Shown: piece after piece, positions 22,487-57,708 of the stretch
Layout of the letters: each line of letters starts with the position of its first letter
Position numbering within the stretch: the first letter of the stretch is position 1
Source: Acidobacteriaceae bacterium
GTDB taxonomy: Bacteria > Acidobacteriota > Terriglobia > Terriglobales > Acidobacteriaceae
Assembly (NCBI GenBank): GCA_003139795.1
Contig: PLGM01000293.1
Location: 1-64,000 of the forward strand
Reading direction: 5' to 3'
DNA: 64,000 nucleotides
Made by a program: the position numbers and the translations under genes
The notes under the pieces: model-generated
Database searches by the model: none
What the model was told of the DNA's origin: nothing
What the model saw: only the letters and a program-made list of their open reading frames with translations

Positions 22487-24610
22487 CTAACTCCGCAGCC
22501 GCGCTCCCGCCTTGCCAACAGCTTCCACCACCCGCTCCTGGAAGCTCTTGAGCTCTTCCTCGCGCAGCGTGCGGTCTGCCGCCTGGAAGGTCGCGCCCAG
22601 CAGCAGCGAGTACTCCCCCGCGCCCAGCCGCGCATCGCGAAACACCTCCCGCACCCGCCACTCCACCAGTTCGGGAATCTGCAATCCCGCCAATGCCTGG
22701 TCAATCTTCTCCCAGCCAATGCTCTCGTCCAGAACCAGCGAAAAATCGCGCCGCACCGGCTGGAAACGCGAAATCTCTCTTGCAATCGGTTTGCGCAACG
22801 GCAGCTTGTACAGCCGGTCCAGATAAAGCTCGCCCACCAGCACCGGCTCCTTCAGCTTGCGGGCCGCGGCCTCGCGCGGATGCAGTTGCCCAAACCACCC
22901 CACCGTCGCTCCCTCCACTGCAACCCGCGCTGCCCGGTAAGGGTGCAGCCACCCCGGCGTGAGCCCGGCCTCCGCTGGAAAGCGGTCAAAGTAAACGCCC
23001 CGTGCCTGGAACCGCGCTAGCACCTGCTCTACCGCGCCCTTCACGTCATGGAAATCGATAGCCCGCGCCGGATGCAGCGGTCCCTGTTCCGGCAAACTGC
23101 CTACCGCGCCGAACGCCACCGCCGCCCGCTCCTCCACCTTCTCCGTCGTCCCGCTGAAGACCGTGCCCAGCTCGAACAGCCGCACGTCGCTCACGTCGCG
23201 GTGCAGGTTCCCGGCAATCATCCCCAGCATCCCCGGCACCAGCGACGGCCGCAGCACGCCGGCCTCCTCGCTGAGCGGATTGCCCAGCGGAACCGTGAGC
23301 CCCGGTTGCGGCGCCGTCAATGCAGCCTCCGCCGCCGAGCAGAAGGTGCTCGCAATCGCCTCATGGAACCCCGCCGCAAGCAGCGTTCGCCGCACCGCCG
23401 TCTCGCTCTCCGCCCACGGCAGCGCGCGCACCCCTTCGCCAAACTCCGGCAGCGTGTTGGCAAAGCGGTTATACCCGTAAACCCGCGCGACCTCCTCGAT
23501 CAGATCGATCTCCCGCTCCAGATCAAGCCGCCAACTCGGCAAACTCACCAGCCAGGCCGCATCGGCCTCACTCGCTACCCCCGCGAACTCCGCTAACGTG
23601 CATCCCAGCGCCGTCAGCACACCCTCCACGGTCGCCGCGGTAATCCCTTCCTCATCCACGGTCTTGCCTAGAATCCGCCGCACCTCGCTGAGCGCCAGCG
23701 CCACCGGCTTGCGGTTGGCGGTCCGCGCCTCAAGCTCCGCGACCCGCACGTCCACCAACTCGCCCTCAATCCACCCCCCGTTGGCCAGCAGAATCTTGCT
23801 CACCAGCGCGGAAGCCACCGGCGCCGCATGGAAGTCCGCCCCGCGCTCGAAGCGATGACTCGCATCCGTGTGCAGCCCGTGCCGCCGCGCCGTCCGCCGC
23901 ACCGCCATCGGTTCAAACCACGCCGCCTCCACCAGCACGTTCGTCGTCGCCGGCGTAATCATCGTGTCCCAGCCGCCCATCACCCCAGCCAGACCCAGTG
24001 GCTTCGCATGATCGGCCACAACCAGGTCTTCCGCATCGAGCGTCCTCTCCACGCCGTCCAGCGTCTTCAGCCGCTCGCCCTTGCGCGCCCGCCGCACCAC
24101 GATGCCCCCCTCGATCTTGTCCAGGTCGAAGACGTGCGTCGGCTGCCCCATCGCCAGCCAGGCAAAGTTCGTAGCGTCGACAGCATTCGAGATCTGTTTC
24201 TGTTCCAGCAGCCCAAAGTAGGTAGCCACCTCAGCGCCCGCAAACCAGTCCCGCGAGTCGCCTATAGCAATGCCGCGCAGCACCCGCGCCGTAAATCGTC
24301 CGCACGCGTCCTGGGCCTCGATCCGCACCGGAAAGGGCCCCGCGGCAGCCCGCGCCTCAGGCAGCGCGAAATCAAGCCCCGCCAGCCGAAGCCCATAGAT
24401 CGCCGCCGCCTCCCGCGCCACCCCGTAGTGGTTCATCGCATCCACACGGTTGGTCGTAATGTCCGTCTCGTAGAGCGACCCGTTCCCGCCGCCTAGGTCG
24501 AAAACCCCCTCGACGGCGATCCCGCGCAACGTCAGGTCTTCCGCCAGCCGCGCATCGTCCACCGGCAGTCCCGGTAGATACGCTCTAAGCCATTTCGTAA
24601 GTATTTTCAT
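22487..24610 (-). CDS. pheT: Phenylalanine--tRNA ligase beta subunit
   Basis: MKILTKWLRAYLPG start, B3/B4, B5 and anticodon-binding-type C-terminus (FQPVRRDFSLVLDESIGWEKI). Confidence 0.96.
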   Translation of the reverse strand: MKILTKWLRAYLPGLPVDDARLAEDLTLRGIAVEGVFDLGGGNGSLYETDITTNRVDAMNHYGVAREAAAIYGLRLAGLDFALPEARAAAGPFPVRIEAQDACGRFTARVLRGIAIGDSRDWFAGAEVATYFGLLEQKQISNAVDATNFAWLAMGQPTHVFDLDKIEGGIVVRRARKGERLKTLDGVERTLDAEDLVVADHAKPLGLAGVMGGWDTMITPATTNVLVEAAWFEPMAVRRTARRHGLHTDASHRFERGADFHAAPVASALVSKILLANGGWIEGELVDVRVAELEARTANRKPVALALSEVRRILGKTVDEEGITAATVEGVLTALGCTLAEFAGVASEADAAWLVSLPSWRLDLEREIDLIEEVARVYGYNRFANTLPEFGEGVRALPWAESETAVRRTLLAAGFHEAIASTFCSAAEAALTAPQPGLTVPLGNPLSEEAGVLRPSLVPGMLGMIAGNLHRDVSDVRLFELGTVFSGTTEKVEERAAVAFGAVGSLPEQGPLHPARAIDFHDVKGAVEQVLARFQARGVYFDRFPAEAGLTPGWLHPYRAARVAVEGATVGWFGQLHPREAAARKLKEPVLVGELYLDRLYKLPLRKPIAREISRFQPVRRDFSLVLDESIGWEKIDQALAGLQIPELVEWRVREVFRDARLGAGEYSLLLGATFQAADRTLREEELKSFQERVVEAVGKAGARLRS

Positions 24611-24624
24611 CGTTATTACCTGGT

Positions 24625-24675
24625 AGCAAGTTAGCGTGCGCTGCGCACACAATCGCAAGTTAGCAAGTTAGCGGG
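24625..24675 (+). repeat. Left inverted repeat of the IVS-like element
   Basis: AGCAAGTTAGCGTGCGCTGCGCACACAATCGCAAGTTAGCAAGTTAGCGGG. Confidence 0.88.
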
Positions 24676-24691
24676 TTCCCTCGTTTCCCGA

Positions 24692-25072
24692 TCAGGGCTC
24701 CAATTTCCCTAACAGTCCGTTGATGAGCTTCGCGGTTTCCGTCGCCAGTTCGAGTAACTTCCGGGAAGAATCCTGGTCAATGAACCTCAGACCACACGCC
24801 AACTCATTCTGCGTTTCAAATTCATACAACGACCCACGCGCCGACCCAAGCGATCTGCGCAACTCAGCGTCCGTCAGCTTCCCATGGCCTTCGGCAATAT
24901 GGCTTGCGACCGAAACGGCCGACCGGCGCATCTGCATTCGCAGGCCGAAGGTTTCGGATTTTGGAAACTCCTCCGTCCGTAGGTAAACCTCACGGGCCAA
25001 CTCCATCGCCCTCTGCCAGACGAGTAAATCGCGAAAATGCCGGGTCCTTGCCATAAGCGACCGTTCCCCCAC
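24692..25072 (-). CDS. Four helix bundle protein (23S rRNA intervening-sequence/S23 family)
   Basis: FRDLLVWQRAMELAREVYLRTEEFPKSETFGLRMQMRRSAVSVASHIAEGHGK...EFETQNELA matches the S23/IVP family pattern. ATG at 25054 is an alternative start. Confidence 0.93.
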   Translation of the reverse strand: MGERSLMARTRHFRDLLVWQRAMELAREVYLRTEEFPKSETFGLRMQMRRSAVSVASHIAEGHGKLTDAELRRSLGSARGSLYEFETQNELACGLRFIDQDSSRKLLELATETAKLINGLLGKLEP

Positions 25073-25076
25073 AACC

Positions 25077-25127
25077 CCCGCTAACTTGCTAACTCGCCAA
25101 TGTGCGCGCAGCGCACGCTAACTTGCT
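25077..25127 (-). repeat. Right inverted repeat of the IVS-like element
   Basis: Reverse complement AGCAAGTTAGCGTGCGCTGCGCGCACATTGGCGAGTTAGCAAGTTAGCGGG. Confidence 0.88.
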
Positions 25128-25132
25128 GCTTC

Positions 25133-26239
25133 TCACGCAAACTGCCCCAGAAACCGCATATCTCCCGCAAAAAACTGCCCCATCTCGCTCACTCCATACT
25201 TCATCATGGCAATGCGGTCGGCGCCCATGCCAAAGGCAAAGCCTGAAATCTTCTTCGCATCGTATGCAGCCTGCTTTTCGGCGGCGAACGCAAACACCGC
25301 GGGGTCCACCATGCCGCAACCCAGCAGTTCAATCCACCCCGAATGCTTGCACTTGCGGCAGCCCTTCCCGCCGCAGAAGATGCAACTGATCTGCAAGTCG
25401 GCGCTCGGCTCGGTGAAAGGGAAGAATGAAGGAAAAAACCGCGTCTTCACCGCCGAGCCGAACAGCGCCTTCATGGCGTGGTCCAGCGTACCCTTCAGGT
25501 CGCTGAAGGTGATGTTCGTGTCCACGCAGAGCCCCTCCACCTGGTGGAAGATCGGCGAATGCGTCGCGTCGGCCGCGTCGTTGCGGTGTATCTTGCCGGG
25601 AATGATGATGCGCACCGGCGGCGGTTGCAACTCCATGGTCCGCATCTGCACCGGCGAAGTGTGCGTGCGCAACAGCAGCCGGTCGCGCAGCGGCCGCCGC
25701 TCCTGCCCGGCCACCACCAGCGTGTCCTGCGTATCCCGCGCCGGATGGTCCGGCGGAAAGTTCATGCTCTCGAAGTTGTAGTAATCGGTCTCGACCTCCG
25801 GCCCCACGCCCACCGAGTAGCCCAGCGCCGCAAACACCTGCGTAATCTCGTTCAGCGTCCGCGTAATCGGATGCTCGGCCCCGGTCAGCCGCCGCGTCCC
25901 CGGCAGCGTGATGTCGATCGACTCAGCCGCCAGAGCCGCATCGCTCGGCCCCGCACCGGTCGCCTCGTGGAGCAAACGCTCCACCAGTTCCTTGAGTTTC
26001 TTGAAGCGCTCGCCCACTGGCTTTTTGAACTCAGGCGGCGCAGAGTTGAGCCAGCGGCTGGAGATCTCGTTTAGCAGGCCCTGCTTGCGGCCAAACCACC
26101 GCAGGCGAAAAGCTTCGGCCGCCTCGGGACTGTCGAGCGATGCAGCGTTATTGCGCGCCTGTTGCCCCACCACGCCGAACGCCTGGTCCAGCGCGGCCTC
26201 ATCAAAGGCCGTCAGATTGGGAATCGCTTCGTTCGTCAT
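25133..26239 (-). CDS. pheS: Phenylalanine--tRNA ligase alpha subunit
   Basis: MTNEAIPNLTAFDEAALDQAF start, HPITRTLNEI, RDTQDTLVVAGQ, TEPSADLQISCIFCGGKGCRKCKHSGWIELLGCGMVDP, FGMGADRIAMMKYGV. Confidence 0.96.
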   Translation of the reverse strand: MTNEAIPNLTAFDEAALDQAFGVVGQQARNNAASLDSPEAAEAFRLRWFGRKQGLLNEISSRWLNSAPPEFKKPVGERFKKLKELVERLLHEATGAGPSDAALAAESIDITLPGTRRLTGAEHPITRTLNEITQVFAALGYSVGVGPEVETDYYNFESMNFPPDHPARDTQDTLVVAGQERRPLRDRLLLRTHTSPVQMRTMELQPPPVRIIIPGKIHRNDAADATHSPIFHQVEGLCVDTNITFSDLKGTLDHAMKALFGSAVKTRFFPSFFPFTEPSADLQISCIFCGGKGCRKCKHSGWIELLGCGMVDPAVFAFAAEKQAAYDAKKISGFAFGMGADRIAMMKYGVSEMGQFFAGDMRFLGQFA

Positions 26240-40237: not shown

Positions 40238-40293
40238 CTGTTCCCTGTTCCCTGTTCCCTGTTCCCTAGTCCCTGGTCCCTAGTCCCTCGTCC
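40238..40293. repeat. Heptanucleotide tandem array, 8 units of CTGTTCC/CTAGTCC
   Basis: (CTGTTCC)4-CTAGTCC-CTGGTCC-CTAGTCC-CTCGTCC. Confidence 0.9.
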
Positions 40294-57554: not shown

Positions 57555-57600
57555 CCCGGACAGGAGTTGTGGCCGACACGCAAACCGGCGGACGATGCTA

Positions 57601-57680
57601 TTTGCTGATTCGCTGACTTGTTAACTCGCTGAGTTGCTGACTCGTTAACTTGCTAACTCGCTAACTTGCTAACTTGCTAA
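57601..57680. repeat. Octanucleotide tandem array, 10 units near CTTGCTAA
   Basis: TTTGCTGA TTCGCTGA CTTGTTAA CTCGCTGA GTTGCTGA CTCGTTAA CTTGCTAA CTCGCTAA CTTGCTAA CTTGCTAA. Confidence 0.92.
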
Positions 57681-57708
57681 CATCCCGACCAACCCCAGGA
57701 GGACTCCC

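Follow-up and report, generated by a model that had tools for sequence, protein, structure and literature searches.

Inverted short-tandem-repeat arms around S23 genes: a cassette between pheS and pheT and its relatives across phyla

The S23-family gene that lies between pheS and pheT in the window (the whole stretch of 64,000 nt of Acidobacteriaceae DNA analysed here) is bracketed by inverted arrays of short tandem repeats, and it probably belongs to a widespread family of small cassettes of ~490 bp, i.e., a transposase-less mobile or spreading element with MITE-like derivatives. The evidence comes from the tight association of S23 genes with such arms across genomes, from the matching of repeat unit to S23 lineage, and from the presence, absence, inversion and miniature forms of the cassettes at orthologous junctions.

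The S23 cassette in the pheS-pheT junction

The arms of the window cassette (Table 1) are 51 nt each, 92% complementary and separated by 401 nt. Their local-alignment score is 82, far above what the rest of that locus gives (mean 19, maximum 20), so the arms are not due to chance. A preliminary description of this DNA had reported these arms, an S23/IVP-type ORF enclosed by them, and the distances of the cassette from the pheS stop (5 nt) and the pheT ATG (14 nt) and of the ORF from the two arms (4 nt and 16 nt), and all of this is confirmed. The ORF matches the PF05635 profile at 111.8 bits (cut-off 33.8), which is the sole Pfam match of the protein, and the TIGR02436 profile at 102 (cut-off 24). 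The gene is transcribed in the same direction as pheS and pheT; GTG at 25072 is the mechanical start of the ORF, while the fit to homologues favors the in-frame ATG at 25051 (MARTRHF...) as the better candidate start.

The make-up of the arms had not been mentioned: each is an array of octamers (GCAAGTTA type) broken by a GC hairpin of 13–15 nt. Nor had the dispersed copies: the window arm type recurs elsewhere in the host genome, with internal hairpins that vary among copies. The two solo arrays in the window consist of units that also build S23 arms in the host genome.

Table 1. Positions of the cassette, its neighbors and the solo arrays in the window.
Feature	Position	Strand	Comment
pheT	22487..24610	-	downstream neighbor of cassette; ATG 14 nt past cassette end
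3′ arm (relative to S23)	24625..24675	-	inverted array of GCAAGTTA-type octamers with internal GC hairpin
Internal hairpin of 3′ arm	24636..24648	.	GTGCGC-T-GCGCAC; sequence differs among dispersed copies
S23 / 23S_rRNA_IVP four-helix-bundle gene	24692..25072	-	126 aa; likely start ATG 25051
5′ arm (relative to S23)	25077..25127	-	inverted copy of octamer array with internal hairpin
Internal hairpin of 5′ arm	25102..25116	.	GTGCGC-GCA-GCGCAC
pheS	25133..26233	-	upstream neighbor of cassette; cassette starts 5 nt past pheS stop
Solo heptamer array (CTGTTCC)	40238..40293	+	without S23; unit as in arms of S23 gene L003, same genome
Solo array of window octamer (GCTAACTT)	57600..57681	+	without S23 gene

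Inverted arrays around S23 genes in other genomes

The host genome has four S23 genes, all near inverted short-tandem-repeat arms with a different unit for each; the arms of L003 lie 784 nt from each other, with more than the S23 gene between them. S23 genes are present in 113 of 151 genomes of the family and in 62 of 119 genomes examined in the phylum. At a score cut-off of at least 26, inverted flanks were found at 89% of 111 S23 loci; among 419 control genes, each 150 aa or longer and taken from these loci, the share was 2.1% (Mann-Whitney p=4e-54). Matches in direct orientation differed little (11.7% for S23, 8.6% for controls). The preliminary description had asked whether other S23 genes carry similar arms, and in an enlarged set, which leans to the best-scoring S23 genes, 92.4% of 158 non-pheST cassettes passed the same cut-off. 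Outside Acidobacteriota the arms were found at 23 of 28 S23 loci; armed S23 genes occur in Acidobacteriota, Chloroflexota, Nitrospirota, Bacteroidota, Patescibacteria and Planctomycetota. On plasmids, 7 of 10 S23 loci had clear arms (four or five cyanobacteria, Gemmatirosa of the Gemmatimonadota, and Azospirillum), including TAGGGAG arms on a Nostoc plasmid; a search of phage records for S23 gave no match. On cyanobacterial plasmids (L214, L211, L216, L209), S23 genes sit between cas10 and cmr3, between cas6 and cas4, between an AAA ATPase gene and parB, and, in antisense, between two ribonucleotide reductase genes.

The cassettes have a common anatomy. The arms are arrays of ~4.4 degenerate units, usually of 7 nt and sometimes, as in the window, of 8 nt; the best period per arm (n=268) was 7 in 228 arms, 8 in 26, 9 in 8 and 6 in 6. 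Under three scoring schemes the mode of array length was 30–31 nt, which equals 4 × 7 + 2–3 nt, i.e., five anchors. The median cassette measures 489 bp and S23 is the only gene inside, with no known transposase or nuclease encoded. Cassettes fit closely between genes: the 5′ arm starts a median of 2 nt past the upstream stop codon, the cassette ends a median of 3.5 nt ahead of the downstream start, and 114 of 136 cassettes follow a co-directional gene. They are also polar, with the AG/G-rich strand 5′ of S23 in 44 of 50 S23 protein clusters (p=3e-8). TAG serves as the upstream stop in 55 of 112 cases (49%) against 140 of 456 control genes (31%; p=3.5e-4), an excess due in part to arrays that run into the gene end. 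A frame-independent stop-codon role of the 7-nt units, which we considered, would be only one possible cause of this excess, since the array often overlaps the stop.

Arrays with a period of 7 are not confined to cassettes. In 0.4-Mb samples there were 175 per Mb in G262, which has 10 S23 genes, and 18 per Mb in G270, of the window's genus, and other periods, multiples of three excepted, were near zero; none was found in 0.8 Mb of the S23-free genomes G017 and G183, a contrast that, drawn from two S23-free genomes, is suggestive only. Five further S23-bearing genomes gave 8 arrays per Mb pooled, two of them having none in 80 kb. The G262 samples (L297-L316) hold many CAGGTCT-like units and many arrays longer than five units.

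The repeat unit differs between S23 lineages and is common to close S23 relatives at unrelated sites. For pairs with non-homologous flanks, arm similarity was flat at 0.17 up to 50% S23 identity and then rose to 0.26 (55–60%), 0.34 (60–65%), 0.53 (65–75%) and 0.70 (>75%). The trend by identity bin is clear; the Mantel rho of 0.110 exceeds the maximum of 500 label permutations (0.101) by a narrow margin. One pair first taken as non-homologous, L040 and L042, proved on inspection to be a single site with the cassette inverted, and is therefore not evidence for two sites; L272 and the other close-S23 pairs have different flanks by the same measure, with a further check made on L272 only.

A reading in which slippage and recombination scattered the arrays as repeats in their own right, with S23 genes as captured passengers, is very unlikely in the light of these data. 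Solo arrays are indeed far more numerous than S23 genes, and the two arms of one element in G008 have different internal hairpins (see below), but the 92% association with one gene family, to which the control genes offer nothing comparable, and the fixed polarity and unit-to-S23 matching argue against it.

Presence, absence and orientation at orthologous junctions

At the pheS-pheT junction, S23 was found in 6 of 30 genomes examined (G000, G008, G019, G048, G031 and G035) and in twenty named records (L061-L079 and L089), of which L076 is the cultured Terracidiphilus gabretensis S55, and an array alone, without S23, in G051 and G030. The comparison of relatives for an empty site, suggested in the preliminary description, yielded one: in 8 genomes pheS and pheT meet in a bare ATGA overlap. 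Of the findings that, by that description, would together speak against it, one, gene and arms as an old orthologous feature, is what we observe in ~25 relatives; another, other S23 genes without matching flanks, is not, since those genes have arms. The pheS-pheT cassette is best read as an old insertion, followed by loss or by repeated gains, that one clade has retained and others lack; it would have entered the junction in the ancestor of some members of the family and been inherited since. The records L061-L079 were considered as evidence that the window subtype is mobile and rejected as such, all being pheS-S23-pheT orthologues. Among them the S23 frame is truncated in L074, L078 and L079. 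In L091 (G008) the two arms of the one pheS-pheT cassette have different internal hairpins, which indicates that hairpin and array evolve separately. In L112 (G023) and L114 (G022) the junction, with a spacer of ~480–500 bp, holds a related small non-S23 gene, whose protein starts near IEE..STLPNGFHDAE.

Other junctions are more variable. Across 19 congeneric genomes, the L002 junction was bare in two, held a repeat-free spacer in one and full cassettes of two unit types in five; others had mini-elements without S23, either two inverted arrays or one array, and these comprise at least three unit types. A tree test for independent S23 insertions at this junction did not establish them: the S23 genes there are not monophyletic in the best tree, although monophyly is not rejected (pAU 0.21), so replacement of the unit in place is possible there. 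At the moxR junction of genus g28, full cassettes lie in opposite orientation in G148 and G128, which may reflect recombination between the arms. The same junction in G028 holds a 130-bp S23-less inverted pair of the unit found in the G148 and G128 cassettes, and G028 has its own full cassette of this type ~4.5 kb from the mini-element; the unit is dispersed in ~6–26 copies per genome in g28. Inverted terminal repeats, dispersed coding and non-coding copies, and empty sites, which are among the marks of an IS/MITE pair, are all seen for S23 cassettes. By eye, no consistent target duplication was seen at the pheS-pheT, L002 or moxR junctions, and we saw no case of an insertion that sets nearly identical strains apart.

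The preliminary description had interpreted the window feature as an IVS-like element whose transcript would fold into a long stem, with possible RNase III cleavage parting pheS from pheT. We consider such an RNA element, with the stem as the selected feature, unlikely as the explanation of the cassette, although RNA folding predicts that the transcript can form a stem round the ORF (z = -7.4 for pairing of the arms), the ends of S23-bearing rRNA IVSs are complementary and cut by RNase III (PMC4990558), and most pheS-S23-pheT orthologues retain inverted arms. Mismatches between arms, read in the transcript sense, comprise 144 G-U and 141 A-C (38 and 28 for pheST alone); without a G-U excess, the complementarity would more likely have arisen at the DNA level, and selection on a sense-strand RNA stem, of which there is no sign, was rejected on this test. 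The arms are weak in several orthologues (L075, L065, L077 and L079), and opposite orientations at one site and antisense insertions occur. What stands of the IVS-like design is an S23 gene in complementary termini, placed outside rRNA in a protein-coding operon; what does not stand is the nature of the arms, which are inverted short-tandem-repeat arrays and not IVS-type ends. The interpretation is thus partly supported, and the phenomenon is much wider.

The S23 protein, a proposed mechanism and known systems

The AF2 model of the window S23 protein is a four-helix bundle (pLDDT 92) that superimposes on 2GSC, an entry of five chains, with a TM of 0.82–0.87; 2GSC is a homopentamer (PMC4990558). 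Seven polar residues (Q, R, R, S, N, E and E) are near-invariant over 175 S23 proteins, which suggests a shared binding or active site. The cassettes thus consist of an S23 gene with an inverted array on either side, each of about five anchors that are 7 (sometimes 8) nt apart. In the mechanism we propose, a putative binding of the arrays by the S23 homopentamer would serve to mobilise or maintain them, perhaps with one S23 subunit per 7-nt unit, and mini-elements and solo arrays would be non-autonomous derivatives. That the pentamer reads five anchors, one per subunit, is a testable guess from the length mode and the known stoichiometry.

The same features could be read as regulation, with S23 as a sequence-specific TRAP-like ring protein on NAG repeats of its own mRNA and of dispersed copies, so that the family would be a regulatory network and not a mobile element. 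The fixed polarity, with an AG-rich array in the S23 5′ UTR, the five-anchor length together with pentameric homologues, and the near-invariant polar residues are consistent with it, as is purifying selection on a few pairs (dN/dS of pheST S23 0.05–0.21, from three usable pairs only, nearly saturated). However, it leaves unexplained the second inverted array, the presence and absence at orthologous junctions and the same-type cassettes at unrelated sites, and as a replacement for mobility we judge it improbable; TRAP-like regulation and mobility could exist side by side. Least probable is a retroelement in which S23, like Avd, partners a reverse transcriptase supplied in trans: the S23 model matches Avd, alone and in the DGR ribonucleoprotein (4DWL/8UB7; TM 0.72–0.75 by query length), and there is a weak NCBIfam Avd match, but this partnership was rejected for lack of co-occurrence, since reverse transcriptase (PF00078) is not associated with S23 in 151 genomes (61 of 113 S23-bearing versus 16 of 38 other genomes, p=0.26) and G025, with 11 S23 genes, is not among the 77 genomes with a match.

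The mobile-cassette reading can be set beside several known systems. The 23S rRNA IVSs of Leptospira and Coxiella, selfish by the current view (PMC4990558), likewise enclose an S23-family ORF in complementary ends that could fold into a long stem, and have a patchy distribution; S23 cassettes differ in lying in mRNA operons (the window copy between pheS and pheT, not in a 16S/23S rRNA helix), in their short-tandem-repeat arms and in their signs of DNA-level mobility. REP/REPIN-RAYT systems also pair a gene with flanking inverted copies of a repeat that occurs elsewhere too, both singly and in pairs (for REPINs, PMC3116915), but S23 is unrelated to RAYT/HUH transposases, S23 arms are arrays of 7–8 nt units that change by lineage, and the window cassette has no RAYT (Y1 transposase), its sole protein being the PF05635 one. 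S23 mini-elements resemble MITEs in being short, non-coding and framed by inverted repeats, and in having a coding counterpart; here, in contrast, the coding version lacks a transposase, the ends are arrays and no consistent target duplication is seen. Avd of diversity-generating retroelements shares the fold, whereas S23 shows no RT association and its loci presumably lack RT, template and variable repeat.

To our knowledge, heptamer short tandem repeats of bacteria have been reported repeatedly and their origin is unexplained, and we know of no function of S23 proteins beyond 'IVS protein'. X. campestris encodes the S23 protein 2GSC (XCC0516). Heptamer repeats comparable to S23 arms include GGGAATC of Xanthomonas, GGGGAYT of Nostoc, the cyanobacterial STRR and TAACTGA of Beggiatoa. 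The arrays of Xanthomonas and Anabaena have the same geometry as S23 arms: those of Xanthomonas are mostly of four units, sit on the coding strand 0–50 bp past stop codons and include 70–75 convergent pairs, and in both organisms heptamers also occur before starts on the opposite strand (PMC4692102). The authors of that paper found these repeats unassociated with mobile elements (PMC4692102), and S23 is absent from the text of PMC4679880. The stems of Nostoc tRNA-Leu introns consist of seven-nucleotide repeats that were repeatedly replaced (PMC4476775), and may be another footprint. We found no prior link between S23 and heptamers in open-licence papers, preprints not included; novelty is provisional because the literature covered is incomplete.

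A broader proposal, which we hold tentatively and with less confidence than the cassette family itself, is that S23 cassettes form a phylum-spanning mobile class without a transposase, whose pentameric ring protein would recognise five heptanucleotide anchors per inverted end; the scattered heptamers of Xanthomonas, cyanobacteria, Acidobacteriota and others would be its non-autonomous offspring, and the rRNA IVSs a specialised branch. S23 and heptamer repeats are here statistically tied across phyla, so that both questions, the function of the one and the origin of the other, become directly testable. The results suggest a transposase-less mobile family whose insertions fall where core genes of an operon meet (pheST, an NADH-dehydrogenase-like operon, cas10-cmr3, parAB). 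S23 cassettes look like an undescribed family of spreading DNA, which could explain the 7-letter repeats of bacterial genomes.
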